Positions 14,944-63,030 of a stretch of 64,000 nt of DNA are shown piece after piece; position 1 is the first letter of the stretch, and each line of letters begins with the position of its first letter. The position numbers and the translations under genes are program-made. Where the stretch lies: IMG/VR virus record IMGVR_UViG_3300030109_006161, positions 45,250-109,249 of that record; one strand, 5' to 3'. Below the pieces are notes generated by a model, which saw nothing but the letters and a program-made list of their open reading frames with translations, had not been told where the DNA came from and ran no database searches. The stretch comes from a virus.

Positions 14944-14969
14944 AATAAAAAAGCCGCCCGGAGGCGGCT
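14944..14969 (-). terminator. Rho-independent terminator of the tmRNA
   Basis: On the minus strand a seven-base-pair stem (AGCCGCC/GGCGGCT) with a four-base loop is followed by a run of T residues. The stem begins at the last base of the encoded CCA end of the tmRNA, so it ends the ssrA transcript. Confidence 0.85.
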
Positions 14970-15291
14970 GGTGGAGGTAGGGAGAATCGAACTCCCGTCT
15001 TGTCTAGTTCCATAGAAGGGTCATTCACAAGGTTAGGTCTGTTTTTTTCGTCAGACAGCCCGCTTGACTAGATCATCTTATTATGGCTGAGATAATCAAA
15101 AGCACTTAGAAGACAAAATACGGCTTTCTGTTTTTTGGCTGCCGTCGCCTCAAGTCAAGTCAGGTTATTAAGCTGCTTGTGCTAGTTGAAAATCGTCGTT
15201 TGCGATTAAAAGTTAAGCGTTTTTAGTGAGCCACGCTTCCCTCACCCTTGCACCTTTTCTACTTCCCCATCAGTCGATACCGGTTACCCCC
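14969..15291 (-). ncRNA. ssrA: Transfer-messenger RNA (tmRNA), one-piece
   Basis: This 323-nt RNA has a 5' end beginning GGGGGTA that pairs with TACCTCC at the 3' end, followed by an encoded ACCA. The T-arm GGGAGTTCGATTCTCCC is canonical. The internal reading frame gives the tag (A)ANDDFQLAQAA followed by two stops TAA TAA, with resume codon GCA. tmRNA with SmpB rescues stalled ribosomes and tags products for proteolysis. A sigma70-like promoter and terminator flank it, so it is a complete independent unit. No smpB is visible in the window. Confidence 0.95.
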
Positions 15292-22348: not shown

Positions 22349-22819
22349 ATGAAATTATATACAAAGTCTAGAGCGCTCCTTGTATTTGTTTTATTTTTGG
22401 TGATAGGGTTATCTTCTTACCTTATTTATAAAAACACCCAGCCACAAATTCTACTAGCTAAGAATAACACCTATTATCTCCCAGGGCAAAAAAACAATTG
22501 CCTATGGATAATGCAAATCAATAGTAACGTTAGAGATTCTCTAGGTTCAAGTTCAGAAATAAAGATAGGTATCCCCCAAGCACAAAAAATGGGATATCTC
22601 GCTGGTAGGATTGAAGTCAGCAAAGATAAGACTCTTATACTAGCGTTTAATGCACCACAGTCTAATGGAAGTCAGCCGCCAATAGTTATGACTGCTGATT
22701 ATTATCACAAAAAGTTACCCATAGAAAACATAAGGTTCAGATGGACTCAAAGTAGTTTAGTTACAGTCGTTCTTTATAAGAATAGAAACAAATGCTTAGC
22801 ATCAATGGTGCCGAAATGA
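22349..22819 (+). CDS. Signal-anchored periplasmic protein, unknown
   Basis: This 156-residue protein has one N-terminal membrane helix (about residues 9-27) and a predicted extracytoplasmic remainder with two cysteines. AAGGAG lies before the ATG. Its stop overlaps the next start (ATGA). No family recognised; its place between two exported proteins suggests a shared envelope role. Confidence 0.7.
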   Translation: MKLYTKSRALLVFVLFLVIGLSSYLIYKNTQPQILLAKNNTYYLPGQKNNCLWIMQINSNVRDSLGSSSEIKIGIPQAQKMGYLAGRIEVSKDKTLILAFNAPQSNGSQPPIVMTADYYHKKLPIENIRFRWTQSSLVTVVLYKNRNKCLASMVPK

Positions 22820-24096
22820 AAGATAAGTACGTTCGTTTTATTGTTTTTGTTTCTTATATTTTATTAGTTTGGCTTGTTCTTGGGTGCGAAGAAGATAGAC
22901 TCGTTAAACTTGAGTGCATCCCTGGTGAAAAACTTGTGTGCGACGAGAACGGGCAGGATTTTCCTGCGGCTGATCCTATTGATATCGCACAACGAGCAGG
23001 TCAGTGTTCTTACGGTTTAAAAACCTGTACAACAAGTGGTTGGTCTGAATGTTTAGGAGCACGGGGACCAGCCGAGGAAATTTGTGATGGCATAGATAAT
23101 GATTGTGATGCAGCTATAGATGAAACGTACCCAGAAATGCATCAGCTTTGCGGGTTTGAAGAAGATGCTGATTATGGGGTTGGTATCTGTACGCCTGGTG
23201 TTATGAAATGCGACAATGGAGGTCTGTATTGTGATGGGCATATTGGACCGACCGAAGAAATATGTGATGGGGTTGACAACAATTGCAATGGAACTGTTGA
23301 TGAAAATATTCCTAATTCAACAGCAGTTGTTTGTTATGAAGGACCAGATGGAACTTTAGGTATTGGAGAATGTCGAGCAGGAGTCAGATATTGCACTGAC
23401 GGTAACTTTGGTGGACCTTGTGATAATCAAACTTTACCAATTTTAGAAAGATGTGACGACCTAGACAACGATTGTGATGGTGAAGTGGATGAAGGTTTTG
23501 ATAATCGTGGTGTAGATTTAGTTTTTGTTCTCGATATATCCGGATCCTTTAGGGATGAGATAGACTCAATGATTCAAGGCATAGCTCCCCTTTTAGACGA
23601 CCCGATAACGAGCACATTTCGCTTTGGACTTGTTGTTGTAGGTGCTAGGGGCGGTGACGATCTAAGACCACCATATTACCTCGCAAGAATGGTTTCTGAT
23701 TTTGTATATGCTGATGAATTTCTTGCCGTGATAGAAGCCGGTAGAATGATTGATAGTGCAGGACAAGAACCAACAATAGATACAATGTTTTGGTCAATGA
23801 ATACATATCCGTTCTCATGGCGACCAGAAGCACAAAAAGTTATTATAACAATGACTGATGAAGAAGCTCAGACAATGAACGAGCGCCCTATGTCTTGCGT
23901 CGAGGTGGGTGAAATATCAAATACTTTAGGTTTTGAACTATTCGTGTTTGCCCTCGAACAACATCATAATACATTTATAAATTGTGTAAGAGGTGAAAGA
24001 GATAGACTTTACACTCCGACTGCAAATTCTGAAACTGTATTCTTACAAATTAGAGCTATTTTTGAAGATCTTTGTATTGGTCAGGGCGCTCCATAG
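22816..24096 (+). CDS. MopE-repeat / VWA-domain lipoprotein
   Basis: This 426-residue protein has a lipoprotein signal with lipobox LVLGC (Cys24), then three MopE-type metal-binding-like repeats (EICDGIDNDCD, EICDGVDNNCN, ERCDDLDNDCD, each ending in DE), then a von Willebrand A domain from about residue 235 with MIDAS DISGS and a later TDEE. Such proteins are typical of Myxococcota and relatives and are displayed on the outer membrane. The ATG overlaps the previous stop. Its 3' end overlaps antisense by 41 bases with the predicted frameshift product on the other strand. Confidence 0.82.
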   Translation: MKDKYVRFIVFVSYILLVWLVLGCEEDRLVKLECIPGEKLVCDENGQDFPAADPIDIAQRAGQCSYGLKTCTTSGWSECLGARGPAEEICDGIDNDCDAAIDETYPEMHQLCGFEEDADYGVGICTPGVMKCDNGGLYCDGHIGPTEEICDGVDNNCNGTVDENIPNSTAVVCYEGPDGTLGIGECRAGVRYCTDGNFGGPCDNQTLPILERCDDLDNDCDGEVDEGFDNRGVDLVFVLDISGSFRDEIDSMIQGIAPLLDDPITSTFRFGLVVVGARGGDDLRPPYYLARMVSDFVYADEFLAVIEAGRMIDSAGQEPTIDTMFWSMNTYPFSWRPEAQKVIITMTDEEAQTMNERPMSCVEVGEISNTLGFELFVFALEQHHNTFINCVRGERDRLYTPTANSETVFLQIRAIFEDLCIGQGAP

Positions 24097-24198
24097 AGTG
24101 CCAAACACCATCAGGCGTCATATAAGCACCATATTTCCCTACTTCTGCTAGTATTATATCCTCGTCTTGAGCCTGACGAGGACCTTCTACTTTTTTTC
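24056..24198 (-). promoter_or_regulatory. Programmed -1 frameshift signal and -1 frame extension
   Basis: On the minus strand the zero-frame gene ends GAA AAA AAG TAG, so A AAA AAG is in the correct phase for tandem -1 slippage and is immediately followed by the stop (24187-24189). Seven to eight bases later an 8-bp stem (TCCTCGTC/GACGAGGA) closes an 8-base loop. The -1 frame stays open for 44 codons and ends at TAG (24056-24058) with protein-like composition (ILAEVGKYGAYMTPDGVWHS...). This matches the E. coli dnaX frameshift signal in layout, giving a predicted 135-residue product. Confidence 0.75.
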
Positions 24199-24462
24199 AG
24201 GCTCATCCTCAAGTTCTGGTATTTGATTCACAACACTGTGTATTTGCTTGAGTTCTTTGACTGAATCATGCATGTGATTGATCAACCTGTTTATGGAGGT
24301 AAGTATTTCTTTATTATCACCAGTAGCTAAAGACTCTTGAAGTTTTTGGTTACATGTTCCAAACTTGTTAGTAAATCGACCAATAGATCGAGAGGTAAGA
24401 ATTGTAGCTACTGAGCGGATATCCTCTTCAGGTAGTGTAAAAGATACTTTCTTGTTTTTCAT
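24187..24462 (-). CDS. Small protein (91 aa) with -1 frameshift extension
   Basis: The zero-frame product is 91 residues, soluble and helical, with no recognised family. AGGAG precedes the ATG, which overlaps the stop of the J-domain gene. The last codons form a dnaX-like slippery site, so a longer 135-residue form is predicted. Two-form proteins made this way are common as tail assembly chaperones, and the gene lies just beyond the fibre and J-domain genes; identity as such a chaperone is not shown by sequence. Confidence 0.75.
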   Translation of the reverse strand: MKNKKVSFTLPEEDIRSVATILTSRSIGRFTNKFGTCNQKLQESLATGDNKEILTSINRLINHMHDSVKELKQIHSVVNQIPELEDEPEKK

Positions 24463-25037
24463 TGTAAACTCCTGACATGATTTAGAATAACTTGGACTAC
24501 TTGATCTTTCTCTTCATCATTTTCAGCTAGATAAAAAGCCCAAGCTGTAGTTGTTTTCTTATTAACTATTTCGCTTTCAATAGAATTGATATTATTTTCT
24601 AATAATAATATGGACTCTAGCGATAGTTCTATTAACTCTATATTGAGAGTCCCTGCTAAGTTCAGCAAAGTAGCTATATCATCTTCTTCATAGGCTAGCG
24701 AAGCTTCGGAAAATAAGCCTGAGTATGAGTTATCCCCTGTTTTATCAGGATGTGTTTTTTCGGCTATCTTTCTGTATAATAATCTTATGTCTTTGTTTTT
24801 TTTAGTTTTTTGTTTTATTTCCCTTTCTTCGCTTAGATCCTCTTCTATAATCTTAGGTGGTGGGGAATCCACTATCTCTACTTTGGGAAACATATGTTTG
24901 TAATCATCTGGATAGTGTTTTTCGATATATGCTCTTATTTCTTTTTCTTGTATTAGACAAATTTCGTCAACTTCTTCTTTTTCAAGCAGAAGATAAGAAT
25001 ATTGTAAAGTTAGTTTCTTTATTTTGATGGAAGACAT
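24459..25037 (-). CDS. J-domain (DnaJ-like) protein
   Basis: This 192-residue protein has a J-domain core: LLYRKIAEKTHPDKTG with the HPD tripeptide at 96-98, followed by the FSEASLAYEE helix. No Gly/Phe or zinc-finger region is present, so it is a J-only co-chaperone that could recruit Hsp70. The start at 25037 is chosen because a longer frame would run through the terminator at 25054-25083. It is coupled to the frameshift gene. Confidence 0.75.
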   Translation of the reverse strand: MSSIKIKKLTLQYSYLLLEKEEVDEICLIQEKEIRAYIEKHYPDDYKHMFPKVEIVDSPPPKIIEEDLSEEREIKQKTKKNKDIRLLYRKIAEKTHPDKTGDNSYSGLFSEASLAYEEDDIATLLNLAGTLNIELIELSLESILLLENNINSIESEIVNKKTTTAWAFYLAENDEEKDQVVQVILNHVRSLQ

Positions 25038-25107: not shown

Positions 25108-27876
25108 CTACTCAGCGTGAGCCGTCAGCACCAAGATGCCGCCTTCAACCTTGAAGGAGAAGTATGCATTAGCACCGGCAGCGGTAGAGCCCGATACACG
25201 AAGTTTATCGAGACCAAACTGCTGAACACCAGAGAAGGTGTGTGCCGAAGAGAATACATCAGCATTAAGCTTAGCATCTGTTACTGCACCAGCAACAATA
25301 TGAGAAGCACTAATAGCAAGATCAGCAATCTTCGGAGCAGTCACTGCATCAGCAGCAAGCTTGGCAGTTGTAACATTGAGATCGATCAGGGCAGCCGTGT
25401 CAACAGACCCAGTACCAAGAGCTTCGATATCAACAGCAGCCGATCCAAGTTTTGCACTTGTCACTGCATCATCATTGATCTTAGCAGTTGTTACTGCACT
25501 AGCAACAATGTTAGAAGCGCTAACAGACAAGGTGGCAAGCTCACTGTTTGTCACTGCATTAGCAACGATGTGAGAAGAACTAATTGCAAGAGCTTGAATG
25601 TTGTCACCAACAACAGCACCGTCAGCAAGTTTAGCTTCAGTTACTGCATCAGCAGCAATCTTAGCAGTTGTTACTGCACTAGCAACAATGTTAGAAGCAC
25701 TAACAGCCAAAGTAGCAAGCTCACTGTTTGTCACTGCATTAGCAATGATGTGAGAAGAGCTAATTGCAAGAGCTTGAATGTTATCGCCAACAACAGCGTT
25801 GTCAGCAAGTTTAGCTTCAGTTACTGCATCAGCAGCAATCTGACCTGTGTCAACAGCCAAGCCGGCAAGCTTAGCATTTGTTACTGCTTCATCATTGATC
25901 TTAGCAGTTGTTACTGCACCATCATTGATCTTAGCAGTTATCACTGCATCAGCAACAATGTTAGAAGCACTAACAGCCAATGGAGCAAGCTCACTGTTAG
26001 TAATTGCATTAGCAACAATATGAGAAGAACTAACTGCAAGAGCTTGAATATTGTCACCAACAACAGCGTTGTCAGCAAGTTTAATTTCAGTTACTGCATC
26101 AGCAGCAAGCTTGGCAGTTGTTACAGCCAGATCATTGATCTTAGCAGTTTCAACAGCGCTAGCAACAATGTTAGAAGCACTAACAGCCAAAGTAGCAAGT
26201 TCACTGTTAGTAATTGCATTAGCAACAATGTGAGAAGAACTAACTGCAAGAGCCTGGATATTGTCACCAACAACAGCACCATCAGCAAGTTTAGCTTCAG
26301 TTACTGCATCAGCATCAAGCTTAGCAGTTGTAACACCACCATCCTTCAATCGAAGAGCATCACTGTTAATTTCGATACCGGTATCATCAACGTTGACACT
26401 AAGAGCACCACCGCCGTTTACTCCATTTGGAGCAGCCATACCGAGACCATCACCAGCTACGTCTTGATGAAGCTCTAAACGGAAACCGTTCGATTGAGAT
26501 CCAAAAGTAAAGACATTTGCCGAAGCAGACAATCTAAGAGTGTCAGCACCAGAGAAGGTTGCTGCATCAATACCTTGACCAACATCAAAACTACCTACGT
26601 TGTAGGCTGCATTAAGGGCAGCAACGAGAGAGCCTGTGGCACCAGCGAAGCCGCTAACAAGGGCATGTCCTGCTGTGACATGTGCTGCATCAGCGCCCAT
26701 TACGCCCGACATTGCAAGGTGATCGAACTCACCGTTAGAACCGGTGACAAAACCACCTAAAAAACCACCATGTAACTGATAAGGAATAGCAAACGCCCCT
26801 GATGGGTGTGCATAAGCCATACTATTTCCTCCATTTGAAGTTATTTCGACCGAACTAAAGGAAGACGAAGCATAAGTGTTCGCACCTCTAATTTTATATG
26901 TAACTGATTCGGTAACTGTAACAGATTTGGAACTTCCTGTAACCGTTTCTGTACTATTAAGTACTCCGCCAATATGCTTTTGGAGTTGTAAACTTTCAGA
27001 ATAATAATCTTCCCAACTTAAAGTTACAGAATCTCCACTTTCAACAGTTGTAGCCGAGCTAGAAAAAGAGTTTATAACAGGTGTGATAGGCTCACCGCTG
27101 ATATAAACAGGTCTGGTTAAATCTAAACTATCATATGATAAAGACTGACTTTGGACAAGTACAATATCATCATAATAACCAATATTACTTGTTCCTGAAC
27201 CTCCTCCGCCTACACGGAAAAAAGGAGTTTGGTTGGTAACATTGTTTATGTTGTATCTTTTTGATGCTTGACCGGTATAACTCCATTCACAATCATTTCC
27301 ACTATTATCAACAAAAACATCACCATTGATATCAGTGAGAACAAATCGAAGAGTTTCACCAATTCTGGATGCATATATATGAATCCAGGGTAACCCAGTT
27401 AAATTTATTTGATAAGTTTTTGCTATATACTGATCGACATCAGGCGTATCATCACCGTATGGAGCATACCATCTGATATCATAATTTGTTAGAGAATGAC
27501 CATGGAGTGCATAACTTGACATAAGACCAAGATGAGAAGATATTATTGTTTTGTGATTGCCACCCTCGGAATAAAAGGATTCACTAGTGGGTTTCCACCA
27601 AAAAGCAAGAGCAAAATCACCTTGCCCTACAGTATCGATGGTTCCCGAGGCATTTAGATATGTTCTCCGACGATAGTAAGTCGGAGGGTTTACACTATTA
27701 TCCGCTGCATCAACATAACCAACGTGAAAAGAGCTTGAACCGAACCGCTGGATGTCGGTGGCTATTTCAATTCTTTCGTTTCCACTATATCCTGTTTCTA
27801 CAAATACTACACTATTTGCAGAAGAAGTGTGTATATTTGGGTTTTCACCCGTCCAGTGATATATTCTAGCGGTCAT
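25108..27876 (-). CDS. Repetitive fibre-like protein with lectin-like and Ig-like N-terminus
   Basis: This 922-residue protein resembles a tail fibre. Residues 1-245 look like a LamG/concanavalin-type lectin sandwich (FALAFWWKP, PFFRVGGGGSG). Residues 265-345 look like an Ig/PKD-like domain. From about 510 to 850 there are many copies of 10-11-residue units of type AVTTAKLADDAV / AVGDNIQALAVSSSHIVANA, the beta-helical repeat style of fibre shafts. The last 40 residues differ and may be a tip. GGAGG seven bases before an in-frame ATG at 26820 suggests an internal start giving a 570-residue short form. Confidence 0.8.
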   Translation of the reverse strand: MTARIYHWTGENPNIHTSSANSVVFVETGYSGNERIEIATDIQRFGSSSFHVGYVDAADNSVNPPTYYRRRTYLNASGTIDTVGQGDFALAFWWKPTSESFYSEGGNHKTIISSHLGLMSSYALHGHSLTNYDIRWYAPYGDDTPDVDQYIAKTYQINLTGLPWIHIYASRIGETLRFVLTDINGDVFVDNSGNDCEWSYTGQASKRYNINNVTNQTPFFRVGGGGSGTSNIGYYDDIVLVQSQSLSYDSLDLTRPVYISGEPITPVINSFSSSATTVESGDSVTLSWEDYYSESLQLQKHIGGVLNSTETVTGSSKSVTVTESVTYKIRGANTYASSSFSSVEITSNGGNSMAYAHPSGAFAIPYQLHGGFLGGFVTGSNGEFDHLAMSGVMGADAAHVTAGHALVSGFAGATGSLVAALNAAYNVGSFDVGQGIDAATFSGADTLRLSASANVFTFGSQSNGFRLELHQDVAGDGLGMAAPNGVNGGGALSVNVDDTGIEINSDALRLKDGGVTTAKLDADAVTEAKLADGAVVGDNIQALAVSSSHIVANAITNSELATLAVSASNIVASAVETAKINDLAVTTAKLAADAVTEIKLADNAVVGDNIQALAVSSSHIVANAITNSELAPLAVSASNIVADAVITAKINDGAVTTAKINDEAVTNAKLAGLAVDTGQIAADAVTEAKLADNAVVGDNIQALAISSSHIIANAVTNSELATLAVSASNIVASAVTTAKIAADAVTEAKLADGAVVGDNIQALAISSSHIVANAVTNSELATLSVSASNIVASAVTTAKINDDAVTSAKLGSAAVDIEALGTGSVDTAALIDLNVTTAKLAADAVTAPKIADLAISASHIVAGAVTDAKLNADVFSSAHTFSGVQQFGLDKLRVSGSTAAGANAYFSFKVEGGILVLTAHAE
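26820..26832 (-). promoter_or_regulatory. Strong internal ribosome binding site in the fibre gene
   Basis: GGAGG (minus strand, 26828-26832) precedes an in-frame ATG (26818-26820) by seven bases, exactly at the boundary between the Ig-like region and the fibre shaft. It would allow synthesis of residues 353-922 alone. Confidence 0.55.
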
Positions 27877-32608: not shown

Positions 32609-33613
32609 TCAAGTTATAAACTCATAATCTAAAAGTTTTATTCTCTTACTTTGGTTTTCGGTCGATTCAGAACAAAGATCAGTTGATAAATACTTTTTGT
32701 TATCATCTGCAAAGACTGTCGCTACTGTTTTATCGCTACCAATCTTATGTGCTTTGAGAATAGCGGCAAAGAGGTTAGCACCTGAGGAAATACCCACCGA
32801 AAGACCCATCTTGTTCATTTGTCTAGCCATAATGATTGCATCTGAGTCCTTTACTCTTATGATTTTACCCAATTCATCTAAACTAAGTATTTCGGGAACA
32901 AAACTATCTCCAATTCCTTCAATTCTATGAGACCCATCAGTATTATTGTCCGGAAACACCGGAAATGCTTGAAAATGCTTATTTTTTTCACTAAAATAGC
33001 GAAAAACACCCATAATGGTGCCTCCAGTGCCGGCACCAGCCACAAAAGCAGACAAAGGACTAAACCCATTATTTTTTAGTGTTTTTTCAAGTTCTGGGGC
33101 GGTCGTTGCTAGGTGTGAAGCCGGATTATGAGAGTTTTTGAACTGTTGAGGACAAAAGAACCCTTTTTTTTGACTTTTCTCGTTAGCAATATCAATACAC
33201 CTTAGAAAACCGCCGTCTTCAACACTAATTTCATGTAATTTTGCTCCATAAAAGCGCAATAGACGCTTTCTTTCTTCAGAAAGCCAATTTGGCATGTATA
33301 TTTCTACTTTATGTCCCAAAAAAGCACCCATGGCAGCAAAAGCAATACCAGTATTGCCACTAGTAGCTTCAATTATCGTATCTGAGGGACTTAGAACCCC
33401 TAGTTGGTGTGAATTCTTAATAATTTGTAGAGCCATTCTGTCTTTTATACTGCCAGAATAGTTCCAAGCTTCATATTTTGCAAATATTTCAACAGTTTCT
33501 TCGTTTATTTCACAAAAAACCCGTATAACCGGTGTGTTACCTACAAAATTAGATAGAGTTTCTATAGATTTCAGGTACTTATCCAAGATATCCCTTTCTA
33601 ACTGTCTCTCCAC
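32609..33613 (-). CDS. Cysteine-synthase-like PLP enzyme (fold II)
   Basis: This 334-residue protein has SGSIKDRMA with the PLP lysine, the substrate loop ATSGNTGIAF, the phosphate cup GAGTGGTIMG and GISSGAN, all typical of O-acetylserine sulfhydrylase / cystathionine beta-synthase-type enzymes. It overlaps prkA by 16 bases with a GTG start lacking a clear binding site; TTG at 33586 with AAGGG upstream is an alternative. It may alter host sulfur amino-acid flux; substrate unproven. Confidence 0.85.
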   Translation of the reverse strand: MERQLERDILDKYLKSIETLSNFVGNTPVIRVFCEINEETVEIFAKYEAWNYSGSIKDRMALQIIKNSHQLGVLSPSDTIIEATSGNTGIAFAAMGAFLGHKVEIYMPNWLSEERKRLLRFYGAKLHEISVEDGGFLRCIDIANEKSQKKGFFCPQQFKNSHNPASHLATTAPELEKTLKNNGFSPLSAFVAGAGTGGTIMGVFRYFSEKNKHFQAFPVFPDNNTDGSHRIEGIGDSFVPEILSLDELGKIIRVKDSDAIIMARQMNKMGLSVGISSGANLFAAILKAHKIGSDKTVATVFADDNKKYLSTDLCSESTENQSKRIKLLDYEFIT

Positions 33614-35541
33614 AGGTTATTAGATGCAAACTTAATGACTTCTTCTGCTGATTCTTCATTGTATCCATATTCTTCTATTAGAGTTTGTACCATTTCATTG
33701 TATTTACCTTGTTGCTTCTTATCTCTGCTTTTTGATTTGGTTACAATTCGTGATATATCTCTAACTGAGGCTGTTAATTTATTTTCAATAGCTTCCTTTA
33801 GCGGTGCATAACTTTGCCACGCAACTTTCTCGCCCCTTCTAAGCCGAGAAAACATATATGAAGTGATATCTACTCTGAAATTATCTCTTGCAGTACCAAC
33901 AATGCCAATTTGTTCTTCAATTGAAGCCATGAATCCTTCATCTGGCTGTATCTCTTCGTTTGTTACACCATCTTTTACAGTAGTCATATTAACATATGCC
34001 TCAGCATGATCCAAGTAATTATTAAACAAGGATTCTGCCTGTTCATCATAAGCTGAAACAAATGCTTTTGTAATTTCTTTTTCCAGTATATTAAGATATT
34101 CGTCATGTAGTGTTTTACCTAAGAAGTTCAGGTATCTATTTCTATCGTCCTCTACTACAATTTGATCTTTTACTTGTTTTATGAGCGCATCTCTAATCGA
34201 TATTGGGGTTACCATATTCTTATCACTATCAGACATCGCTGCATCAATAGCTTTCATAATAAATCTTGTAGATATACCTGTCATACCTTCGTCTCGTGCT
34301 TCATCCCGTAAGTCATTTATATCAATCTTCTTTACATGACCTTTTTCTATGACGTCTTTACCATTATAGATTTTCATCTTTGTCATAGGGTCCACTTTAT
34401 TTGATGGGTGTAATCTACTTAGAACTGCAAACATGGATGCTACCTCTAATGTATGAGGTGCAATGTGTCCATCAAAATCCGATAAACCCAAAAGCTTCTC
34501 GTAGATCTTTTGTTCTTCTGTGTATTCAAGACTGTATGGAACATTAACCCTAACAATACGGTCTAAAATAGCTTCATTAGTATTTTCTGATTTAAACTTG
34601 TTCCACTCTGCTTCATTGCAGTGTGCTAAAATAACACCATCAAAATAAATCATTGGTCCCTTACCTGGGGAGGGTACGGCTTTTTCCTGAGTTGCTGTAA
34701 TCATGGTGTGAAGAAACTCAATCTCGTTTTTAAACACCTCGACAAACTCAACGATACCACGGTTACCGACATTAAAGGCACCATTCAAGGATAAAACCCT
34801 AGGGTCATCCTCTGAGTATAAATCTAGTTTGGAAATATCTTCACTGCCAATAAGGATTGTAACGTCTTGACTATTAGCATCCATTGGAGGCACGACACCA
34901 ACACCCCTTCGCCCTCTAACTGAGAAAGATGATTGTGTTATTGGTACAGACATATAATCATTATTGTATTTTTCTTTTAAATTGTGCCGGCACACCGGAC
35001 ATAAATCACCTTCAATCTTTATTCCATATATCTCTTGAAATTTATCTCGCAAAGAACGAGGGATCAGGTGAAGTGGTTCCTCTCTTATGGGGCAGCCTTC
35101 AATATGATGCATTGGTTCACAATCTTCTAGAGCCCCTTTTATTCTTTCTAATAGAGCAGATTTACCTGCCCCGACAGGTCCCAGGAGTAGAAGTACCTGA
35201 CGGCTTTCCTCTCCTTTAAGAGACGCTGAACGGAGAAACCTCATGATCTTAGCTAGAGAACGCTCCATGCCAAAGAAATTGCTTTGAAAATAATTGTAGG
35301 TTCTAATTTCTTCCCCACCAAAAAGCTTATGACAACGATCATCCGACTTGGACATTCGTGTTATGCCATGTGATGTGATCGTATCATACAAACGTTTGTG
35401 AGATAGTTTAGTAATTGTAGAGTCTGCCTCTAACAATTCAATATATTCTTTTAGCGTTCCTTCAAACTTTTTAGGTTTTTTACTTTCTTTGTGTTTACCA
35501 ACCAGTTTAAGAAATTTATCAGACTTGTTTTCTTTTGGCAT
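33598..35541 (-). CDS. prkA: PrkA-type serine protein kinase / AAA protein
   Basis: This 647-residue protein matches PrkA/YeaG: N-terminal LKEYIELLEADSTI, FFGMERSLAKIMRFLR, Walker A GPVGAGKS at 121-128, a middle domain with SEDISKLDLYSEDDPRVLSLNGA, and a C-terminal part with RDNFRVDITSYMFSRLRRGE. Cysteines CPVCRHN match the family zinc-like site. PrkA acts with YeaH and SpoVR in stress and sporulation signalling. The ATG at 35541 follows GGGAG. It is third in the yeaH-spoVR-prkA run. Confidence 0.92.
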   Translation of the reverse strand: MPKENKSDKFLKLVGKHKESKKPKKFEGTLKEYIELLEADSTITKLSHKRLYDTITSHGITRMSKSDDRCHKLFGGEEIRTYNYFQSNFFGMERSLAKIMRFLRSASLKGEESRQVLLLLGPVGAGKSALLERIKGALEDCEPMHHIEGCPIREEPLHLIPRSLRDKFQEIYGIKIEGDLCPVCRHNLKEKYNNDYMSVPITQSSFSVRGRRGVGVVPPMDANSQDVTILIGSEDISKLDLYSEDDPRVLSLNGAFNVGNRGIVEFVEVFKNEIEFLHTMITATQEKAVPSPGKGPMIYFDGVILAHCNEAEWNKFKSENTNEAILDRIVRVNVPYSLEYTEEQKIYEKLLGLSDFDGHIAPHTLEVASMFAVLSRLHPSNKVDPMTKMKIYNGKDVIEKGHVKKIDINDLRDEARDEGMTGISTRFIMKAIDAAMSDSDKNMVTPISIRDALIKQVKDQIVVEDDRNRYLNFLGKTLHDEYLNILEKEITKAFVSAYDEQAESLFNNYLDHAEAYVNMTTVKDGVTNEEIQPDEGFMASIEEQIGIVGTARDNFRVDITSYMFSRLRRGEKVAWQSYAPLKEAIENKLTASVRDISRIVTKSKSRDKKQQGKYNEMVQTLIEEYGYNEESAEEVIKFASNNLWRDS

Positions 35542-35546
35542 GTTTT

Positions 35547-36863
35547 TTAAAACTCCCATATTTCATCTTCAATTATGGTAGTGAATTTTACCCCACCAGT
35601 CCACAGTTCGTTAATCTGTCCGAAAACTTTATTAGCTTCAGACAATTCTAAATCTCGACCATCGTGTTCATGATGTAGGACCAATGTGCCATCTTGTAAC
35701 ATTTCCTCAACATACACCACTGGTGATGAATTAAGACCTATATTTTTAATTAGGTCGTCACGAATAGTTCTCCACCGTTCTCCGCCAGAAACATCGGTTA
35801 CTCGATGCACTCCATCTTTTTTATCAAACGCAAAACTGAATAAATTCAATTCATTACACAATTCTTCATCCAAATATTTTTTAATGAACGTTTCATCGGA
35901 ATGTGATTCTCTAGCTATAAGACATGCATCAAAACCTATCTTATCTTCAATATGTCTAAATATCTTGTACCCTAAGTGATAAGGGTTCACTCTTCCCAAG
36001 TGCGGTCTTATTACTTGGTTGTGTAATCTTATGAAAGCTAAATTATATTCTGTTGGTAAATCTAGCATATTCATTATTTTCTCGTGTATTAAAACAGCCC
36101 AACCCTCGTTCATAATTTTAGTTTTTGCTTGAGGTATAAAATACAAAGAGTTTTGTTCTACAATGTGAATAACATCTTTTTGCCAATCCGCTAAATATTT
36201 GTTGTTATTTCTTATAAATCCAAGTAAATTATAATCTGGCTCCAAAGGAATTTTATTTAGATTAAAATTATCATATTTGCCAGTTTTATCATTGGAGATT
36301 AGTTTTCTATAATACTCTTTCAAACTTTTTGGATCTCTTCTTTTCAACCCTGGACTTCTGGGTACTTGATATCTAATTGTGTGACAAGCATCAAGAATCC
36401 GCTCGACTGCATCGATTCCAATATGTGGATCTTCCATATATTTCTTGATACGCTTACCAGCAGACTTAAACCGGTCAATAACATTGTCTGCATCAGTATC
36501 AACGAACATCCTATTGTTCTTGAAAAAATCACTATGACCTACACAATGTGACATTGTAAGTAGATGAGTTGACATTGGGTTCTCTGTCATAAGGTAAGCA
36601 ATACTGGGGTTAGAATTTATAATCATTTCGTAAGGAAGACCCTGCATTCCTAAATTATATTCTGTCTGGATCCGATCAAATGATTTACCAAAAGACCAGT
36701 GCCGGTAATGAGTTGGCATTCCAGTATAAGCCATATGACCCATCATTTCTTTATAGTCGCAGATTTCATAATCAATGGGGTACCATTCTAAGCCAAGTTC
36801 TTCACCTAGCTTACAGATTTTATTATCCCACATTTGTAATTCACTCATACTCCACTCAGCCAC
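35547..36863 (-). CDS. spoVR: SpoVR/YcgB family protein
   Basis: This 438-residue protein shows the SpoVR plan: GLEWYPIDYEICDYKEMMGHMAYTGMP near the N-terminus, HWSFGKSF, NEGWAVLIHEKIM and LGYKIFRHIED. Function of SpoVR proteins is not established, but they are genetically tied to PrkA and YeaH. GTG at 36863, eight bases after GGAGG, is the start and overlaps the yeaH stop by eight bases. Confidence 0.92.
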   Translation of the reverse strand: MAEWSMSELQMWDNKICKLGEELGLEWYPIDYEICDYKEMMGHMAYTGMPTHYRHWSFGKSFDRIQTEYNLGMQGLPYEMIINSNPSIAYLMTENPMSTHLLTMSHCVGHSDFFKNNRMFVDTDADNVIDRFKSAGKRIKKYMEDPHIGIDAVERILDACHTIRYQVPRSPGLKRRDPKSLKEYYRKLISNDKTGKYDNFNLNKIPLEPDYNLLGFIRNNNKYLADWQKDVIHIVEQNSLYFIPQAKTKIMNEGWAVLIHEKIMNMLDLPTEYNLAFIRLHNQVIRPHLGRVNPYHLGYKIFRHIEDKIGFDACLIARESHSDETFIKKYLDEELCNELNLFSFAFDKKDGVHRVTDVSGGERWRTIRDDLIKNIGLNSSPVVYVEEMLQDGTLVLHHEHDGRDLELSEANKVFGQINELWTGGVKFTTIIEDEIWEF

Positions 36864-38049
36864 TTAATATACCTCCGAACAATTTCCTAAAAGATTTCCA
36901 AATGTCCTTGTGAGTAACAAGTCTCACTTTCTTGAAGTGTTTATCTTCTAGAGGTTTTATCTTGTCCCACAATCCTTCACCTGTAAAGGAAGCAAAAAAA
37001 GATAAAGAATCTCTATGGGACCTTTCTTCACCTATCTCTGTGTAACAAATCAACTGATTAATTTCTTTCAATTTCCGAAACAAAGATATACTCTCTTCAT
37101 TGTCAGAGGGCCAGTTCTCTCCATCACCACAATAAAATGTATATATATTCCAATTGTTTGGGTGATATCTTTTCTCAGTTATTTCTAATACTTTTCCTAA
37201 ACCGGAAGACGCCATAGTGCCACCGCCTGTAGCCCGAGTAAAAAACTGTTCTTCGTTTACTTCGTGAGCATCAGTTGTATGAGAGACAAAAACAACATCT
37301 ACAGAAGAATACCTATGATTTATAAATTGATACAGAAGAAAGAAAAAACTTCTAGCTAGGTATTTTTTCGATTTGTTCATTGATCCTGAAACATCCATTA
37401 CAAAAAATATAACTGCGGTAGTATTGTCTTTTTGAACTGGTGCTATGTGTTTGTATCTTAGGTCACTGTCATGAAATGGAAACCTGTCGTCTGAGTCAGG
37501 ATCATGTGTGCCAGCCTTTATTGCTGCTTTCTTTCTTTTTATTTTTTGCTTTATGGTTTCTTTTTTAGATAACCGAGGACGAATACCATAAGGGCGTTTT
37601 CCTTTTCGCTTCATCCTTTCTTCGGCTATGAACTTAAATCTTTTCTTTTCTAACTCTGGCAACTCAAGATCGGCAAAAAGATATTCTGCCAATTCTTCCA
37701 AAGACATCTCTATCTCATACATCTCCTCCCCAGGTTTATCACCTGGTTTGTTCCCTTGACTACCGTCCTGTCTTTGACGCTTACCAATCCTTTGTCCTTG
37801 TTGTACTTTTTTACCCTGCGCTGAACCTACACGTTTATTTTTTTCGTTGTTGCCATAAACGAACTGGTGCTCTTTGATACCTCTTACTGGTATCCTGACT
37901 TTCTTTTTTCCGTTTTGCCCGATAATGCTTTCTTCGGCTACAACATCTTTGATGCTGTCTTTTATGGCTCTCTCTATTTTTTCTCGATGCCTGGTTCGAT
38001 CACCAGCCGCACGGTCAGCAATTGTTTTATGTTCTCTGAAAGTACTCAT
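36856..38049 (-). CDS. yeaH: YeaH/YhbH (DUF444) VWA protein
   Basis: This 397-residue protein has the DUF444 layout: basic N-terminus (DRAAGDRTRHREKIERAIK), a Gly/Lys/Gln-rich linker and a VWA domain with MIDAS DVSGSM and ATGGGTMASSGL. It is the first gene of the yeaH-spoVR-prkA module, in the order typical of bacteria. An ACTACTTACTAT element lies just upstream of the start. Confidence 0.92.
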   Translation of the reverse strand: MSTFREHKTIADRAAGDRTRHREKIERAIKDSIKDVVAEESIIGQNGKKKVRIPVRGIKEHQFVYGNNEKNKRVGSAQGKKVQQGQRIGKRQRQDGSQGNKPGDKPGEEMYEIEMSLEELAEYLFADLELPELEKKRFKFIAEERMKRKGKRPYGIRPRLSKKETIKQKIKRKKAAIKAGTHDPDSDDRFPFHDSDLRYKHIAPVQKDNTTAVIFFVMDVSGSMNKSKKYLARSFFFLLYQFINHRYSSVDVVFVSHTTDAHEVNEEQFFTRATGGGTMASSGLGKVLEITEKRYHPNNWNIYTFYCGDGENWPSDNEESISLFRKLKEINQLICYTEIGEERSHRDSLSFFASFTGEGLWDKIKPLEDKHFKKVRLVTHKDIWKSFRKLFGGILSG

Positions 38050-60849: not shown

Positions 60850-62586
<1,737 letters not shown>

Positions 62587-62597
<11 letters not shown>

Positions 62598-63030
62598 TGT
62601 CCTCAACTCCAAGAACTTCAACTTCAAACGTTAAATCTTGTCCTGCAAGTGGATGATTGAGATCGGCAGTGATGGTTGTCTCTTGCATCTCCACAAGACG
62701 AGCGATGACTTGGCGACCATCTGGACCTTGAAGTGGGATTGGCATTCCAGCCTCAAAGGGGAAATCATCTGGGAACATACTTTTCTCTAAAGTTGTCATT
62801 GCTTCTGGGATTGGATCTCCATAAGCGTCTGCCGACTCAATAGTAAAAGTCTTACTATCACCAGCACCCATGCCGGTCAAAGCACTTTCAAAACCTACAA
62901 TGAGATTTCCCTGGCCGGTTGTAACGGTCATTGGTTCGTTGCGCTCAAAGGAACTGTCAAAGGTAGTTCCATCATTTAGTGTCCCCTTGTAATGCAAGGT
63001 CACCGTGCTTCCGTTTTGTACTGTTGTCAT
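62587..63030 (-). CDS. FKBP/SlyD-like peptidyl-prolyl isomerase
   Basis: This 147-residue protein has VTLHYKGTLNDGTTFDSS, a GQGNLIVGFESALTGMGAGD segment and an inserted IF-domain-like region (PEAMTTLEKSMFPDDFPFEAG), followed by NHPLAGQDLTFEVEVLGV, the SlyD-type plan. It assists protein folding and lies next to groEL. Confidence 0.88.

Follow-up and report, generated by a model that had tools for sequence, protein, structure and literature searches.

A probable conserved −1 ribosomal frameshift in a small gene beside the tail fibre and J-domain genes of uncultured phages

In this study, we analyzed a 64,000-nucleotide stretch of a 109,249-base virus record (hereafter, the window) and found a small minus-strand gene that probably uses a conserved programmed −1 ribosomal frameshift to make two products of 91 and 135 residues. 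Most ribosomes would stop at a TAG codon and release a 91-residue two-helix protein. A fraction of them would pause at an SD-like GAGG and a downstream hairpin, move back by one base at the A AAA AAG heptamer, and continue into a domain of 44 residues, for a total of 135. That the slippage takes place on the ribosome we infer, together with its efficiency. The gene belongs to an undescribed phage gene family and carries a conserved recoding event with a signal of a known kind. To our knowledge, most of what is known about conserved frameshifting in tailed phages comes from lambda-type tail assembly chaperone genes. If our reading is correct, the family described here is a second conserved phage gene family with a domain hidden behind a frameshift, adjoining fibre and J-domain genes, and it widens this picture. 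The site also points annotators to a domain that is invisible to standard gene callers.

The slip site and its local signals

The 0-frame gene (24187–24462, minus strand) encodes 91 amino acids (MKNKKVSF...ELEDEPEKK*), has homologues at the equivalent position in numerous phage contigs, and ends in GAG GAT GAG CCT GAA AAA AAG TAG. The slippery heptamer A AAA AAG occupies positions 24190–24196 of the minus strand, in phase and directly 5' of the 0-frame stop codon TAG (24187–24189, minus strand), which abuts it. An abutting stop is also present in two related loci, L018 (TAG) and L063 (TAA). Upstream lies an SD-like GAGG (24207–24210, minus strand) with a 10-nt spacer to the heptamer, and a hairpin (24158–24183, minus strand) is located 6–7 nt past the heptamer. 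The hairpin arms (24182–24175 and 24166–24159) form 8 bp around an 8-nt loop, or 9 bp when one G-U pair is counted. Its stability is −15.2 kcal/mol (z about −4.9), which none of 200 shuffled sequences equalled. In the −1 frame, 44 codons (VEGPRQAQDEDIILAEVGKYGAYMTPDGVWHSMERPDQYKDLQK; 24059–24190, minus strand) are open up to a stop at 24058–24056, and this extension overlaps antisense with a plus-strand lipoprotein gene by 41 bases (24056–24096). The sequence-only reading had described the in-phase heptamer with its abutting stop, an 8-bp stem-loop, the 44 open codons, the two product sizes, and the 41-base overlap, and all of these, coordinates included, are borne out at the base level. The segment GAGCCTGA (24198–24205), just 5' of the heptamer, is complementary to TCAGGCTC (24170–24177) in the stem and loop of the hairpin, and this alternative pairing would compete with the downstream hairpin.

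The openness of the −1 frame, taken alone, is weak evidence (P = 0.042 for 44 codons under a first-order model), and the chance of the heptamer given the residues E-K-K is 0.16 in the window. In a scan of the 109-kb contig, no other in-phase A AAA AAG close to the 3' end of a gene had an extension longer than 11 codons. The remaining long cases were A AAA AAA sites, including one at the GroEL start, where the A-run before a long frame at 62436 was rejected as an ordinary overlapping start. The window sequence alone makes the site only moderately more than chance, and its conservation among relatives, described below, places it well beyond chance.

The hairpin could instead terminate transcription of the plus-strand lipoprotein operon and be unrelated to decoding, an alternative that concerns the hairpin alone and leaves the frameshift untouched; we consider it fairly unlikely. 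A terminator scan flags 24159–24182 on the plus strand with a run of seven T eight bases beyond, where 0.4 such hits are expected by chance in the region. However, the bases CCTTCTAC lie between the stem and the T-run, and a position 6–7 nt past the heptamer is typical of −1 stimulators. The hairpin may serve both termination and decoding.

The combination of signals resembles several known systems. Escherichia coli dnaX (tau/gamma) likewise has A AAA AAG, an SD-like element approximately 10 nt upstream, and a downstream hairpin, so that the "dnaX layout" claimed from the sequence alone holds for the signals. It does not hold for the outcome, because the −1 shift in E. coli dnaX shortens the product to gamma, whereas the shifted product of the window gene is the longer one, and the 91-aa protein is unrelated to DnaX. 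Some bacterial dnaX genes have the reversed arrangement, with the 0-frame stop directly past the site (PMC5009743), and they match the layout of the window gene more closely than E. coli dnaX does. In dnaX, both the hairpin and the slippery sequence have been studied in detail (PMC7282821). Few motifs in E. coli are as shift-prone and efficient as A_AAA_AAG (PMC4066793; PMC5009743), and the number of lysine tRNAs in the host, one or two, makes a difference for this motif (PMC5009743). Transposases of IS911 and the IS3 family share A AAA AAG, an upstream SD-like element, a downstream structure, and a shift that leads to a longer fusion, but the window gene is not a transposable element and the proteins are unrelated.

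Lambda gpG/gpGT, which are assembly factors for the tail tube (PMC5009743), and their relatives in many tailed phages are similar in that a small phage protein with tail-related neighbours is extended at its C-terminus, in a minor form, by a 3' −1 shift. In contrast, the window gene follows tail fibre and J-domain genes in a contractile-tailed phage rather than lying beside the tape-measure gene, and it uses A AAA AAG with an SD-like element and a hairpin. The gene does not appear to belong to the lambda-type G/GT family: no homology to known tail assembly chaperones was detected in Pfam, PHROG, or phage records, and in the window and its relatives the gene is not directly upstream of a tape measure gene, its neighbours being fibre, J-domain, and lipoprotein genes.

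Relatives of the gene and conservation of the extension

Single-sequence searches of viral contigs returned no match for the 91-aa protein and none for the extension alone. Phage records contained no match to the gene family, neither Pfam nor PHROG returned a family with a meaningful E-value, a search of bacterial genomes with the J-domain gave no hit, and our literature search found no report on this frameshift gene family. Relatives were sampled through the neighbouring genes instead. A search with the lipoprotein yielded 27 loci and profiles of the J-domain protein yielded 46, partly from the same contigs again; in each locus, the gene downstream of the J-domain gene was read for a slip site and an extension.

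The split arrangement, in which A AAA AAG lies in phase close to the 0-frame stop and a homologous −1 extension follows, is present in four divergent uncultured phages, L018, L020, L043, and L063 (the in-phase heptamer of L020 is also seen in L046). L018 reads A AAA AAG TAG with the extension VENPPEENENIVFGGNMGEYGGRVDFKNKFLHPFNMKPSKIDID, and L063 reads A AAA AAG TAA with VKMSVKESLEKTGKLSFGKMGKYGGRFDLKTQKLTPHNIKPMKIDIKD; the extensions of L020 and L043 are AKEVTLGKVDDDGSVTLGKLGSKGGQLDMRTGEWKQYN and ETTIGEMNEDGSFTIGKVGKKGGQLNFKTGKWEELN. A sixth extension, GFPRVRDDGTTELCAMGPAGAYMTPDGKWTPMDYPDQHRDLQKSDVSEEKLSRS in L055, was found with a profile of the other five and is nearest to that of the window (GAYMTPDGVWHSMERPDQYKDLQK). 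It sits in the +1/−2 frame at a run of eight A (CCA AAA AAA AGG). In this locus (L055:2662-2865), the A8 run is followed by AGG C and the 0-frame tail is K/R-rich. In L055, recoding may work in a different mode (−2, +1, or transcriptional slippage), or the run length may be in error; in the former case, this variant could show an evolutionary change of mode at a recoding site.

Profile searches and substitution patterns indicate that the extension is coding. With leave-one-out profiles, each of the six extensions was the top six-frame peptide in its own locus (E-values from 9e-12 to 5e-10), and that of the window ranked first of 1781 six-frame peptides (E 2.4e-10). The part of the window extension outside the lipoprotein overlap still gave an E-value of 9.7e-7; antisense constraint is therefore not the explanation. 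When L055 was left out, the window extension remained at rank 1 but with an E-value of 0.8; the strength of the case for the window itself thus comes from L055. The third codon position of the −1 frame is the most variable, with differences at the three positions of 15, 4, and 19 between L043 and L020, 14, 9, and 28 between L018 and L063, and 8, 8, and 14 between the window and L055 outside the lipoprotein overlap, which points to a coding pattern. The 0-frame product also looks real, because its K-rich tail is common to several loci.

The slip signals were compared across the five divergent loci with the −1 arrangement. The frame-overlap windows that hold the in-phase A AAA AAG are 10, 16, 34, 67, and 73 nt long. 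Under synonymous recoding with the lysines given, the chance of the heptamer in the five loci is 0.156, 0.105, 0.142, 0.403, and 0.178 (product about 1.7e-4). An SD-like 4-mer at a spacer of 8–13 nt is present in four of the five loci, compared with 6.5% of positions (about 1e-4, binomial estimate), L043 being the locus with no such element at this spacing. The hairpin is strong in the window and L018, moderate in L020, and not clear or convincing in L043 and L063.

The gene also exists without the extension. L002 and L003, the closest relatives by the J-domain gene (approximately 57% identical), carry a version of 89 aa with an in-frame end and with neither slip site nor extension. This first seemed a refutation of the frameshift, a reading reversed by the wider sampling through the lipoprotein and with J-domain profiles. 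The short gene without extension was also found in L007, L009, L019, L024–L026, L040, L041, and L054, which means that some phages can do without the long form. In a tree of the J-domain gene, the carriers are located on several deep branches (L018/L063, L020/L043, the window, and L055), and the state is therefore either old and lost more than once or gained more than once. Longer single-frame proteins in L008, L010, L027, L057, L058, L061, and L064 were considered as fused homologues and rejected: homology to the frameshift gene is confined to their N-terminal part (hhalign 88.8%), and the extension has no match in their C-terminal part. These seven proteins share a different conserved C-terminal motif (ITPDG/IDTDG). 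In L035, L037, L038, and L039, the gene is internally deleted, with only the first approximately 11 and the last approximately 13 residues kept in one frame (MKSKKIDFKVLSMDHPDQYKD...).

A plain frameshift mutation, or a sequencing or assembly error in a homopolymer, would mean that the gene is really single-frame or decaying. A run length off by one would fuse the two frames of the window, homopolymers are error-prone, and L055 illustrates that the frame relation at such an A-run can differ. Nevertheless, the extension is out of frame in six divergent phages from different assemblies, and no intact relative among the loci read downstream of the J-domain gene has both parts in one frame. Furthermore, K-rich 0-frame tails recur in several loci as if selected, and all five −1 cases use the same heptamer. 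We consider mutation or error very unlikely. A search for homologues whose single frame covers both parts had been suggested as a check on the frameshift, and the absence of fused homologues had been named as a refutation. The search returned no intact fused homologue, but its outcome differs from the one foreseen and supports the frameshift more strongly: the split arrangement is kept in four divergent phages, and a fifth keeps the extension in the remaining frame at its A8 run.

Expression of the extension as a separate small gene by termination-reinitiation is still less probable, and we regard it as extremely unlikely. L063 has an ATG a few bases past the 0-frame stop. However, the first start-like codon of the extension is at codon 24 in the window, 17 in L018, 15 in L020, 7 in L043, and 3 in L063, so that its position is not conserved, and in the window and L018 it falls within the conserved core.

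Slippage on the ribosome or on the polymerase

The main and serious rival is transcriptional slippage, in which transcripts gain or lose an A as RNA polymerase crosses a run of 7–9 A and some mRNAs then encode the long protein by ordinary translation; we judge it unlikely. A run of at least seven A, where RNA polymerase could slip, is found near the site in every locus, with lengths of 7 in the window, 7+6 in L018 and L063, 8 in L020 and L055, and 9 in L043. Bacterial transcriptional slippage is established on runs of nine A or T (PMC5009743). It would also cover L055, where the extension in the third frame is out of reach of a −1 shift and counts against it. On the other hand, transcriptional slippage is indifferent to phase, and A AAA AAG is in phase in five of the six loci (about 0.02, binomial estimate). 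The ribosome rather than the polymerase is favoured by the correctly spaced SD-like elements and, in two loci, by the hairpin; runs of six or seven A are short for slippage by the polymerase.

The programmed −1 ribosomal frameshift is thus the reading that we prefer, and it agrees with the proposal made from the sequence alone, which four relatives now back with the heptamer in phase and a homologous −1 extension. A broader scheme seems rather improbable to us: recoding at the A-run may drift between lineages, with −1 slippage on A AAA AAG in most and −2, +1, or transcriptional slippage in L055, the extension being conserved throughout, and a J-domain co-chaperone and a two-form helical protein taking part in phage fibre assembly.

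Gene neighbourhood and predicted proteins

The phage is contractile-tailed, as judged from a baseplate wedge gene in the 109,249-base record outside the window. Directly upstream of the frameshift gene, with an ATGA overlap, lies a gene (24459–25037, minus strand) for a predicted J-domain (DnaJ-like) protein. The Pfam DnaJ match (E 2.2e-5) is slightly under the curated cut-off, and the HPD motif within the DnaJ-like domain is invariant in 11 relatives. Upstream of the J-domain gene is a tail fibre gene (25108–27876, minus strand; PHROG 892 tail fiber protein, E 3.8e-60). The convergent lipoprotein gene (22792–24096, plus strand) has MopE-repeat and vWA domains (Pfam Cu-binding_MopE 4.3e-14 and VWA 2.2e-4), and relatives have it at the same position. 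The module of tail fibre, J-domain, and frameshift genes facing the MopE/vWA lipoprotein gene is kept across divergent phages. The bacterial relatives of the lipoprotein are mostly from Myxococcota and other deltaproteobacterial MAGs, which may hint at the host group.

The AlphaFold model of the 91-aa protein is a two-helix hairpin (helices 12–47 and 50–78, pLDDT 90.8), and that of the extension is a small beta hairpin (pLDDT 82). Fold searches retrieved only generic helical hairpins for the former and nothing for the latter. The position of the frameshift gene suggests a role in fibre or tail assembly, and the neighbouring J-domain gene suggests a link between recoding, chaperones, and fibre assembly. 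From this position and by analogy with lambda gpG/gpGT, we tentatively propose, as the weakest step of our interpretation, that the two forms and the J-domain protein might act in a set ratio as tail fibre assembly factors.

The phage also encodes a GroEL-like chaperonin and an FKBP-type isomerase (60850–63030), which together with the J-domain gene make several chaperone genes in one phage. A tmRNA gene (14969–15291) was found by Rfam (88.6 bits) and missed by ARAGORN. In addition, a PrkA–SpoVR–DUF444 (YeaH) gene set is present at 33598–38049.
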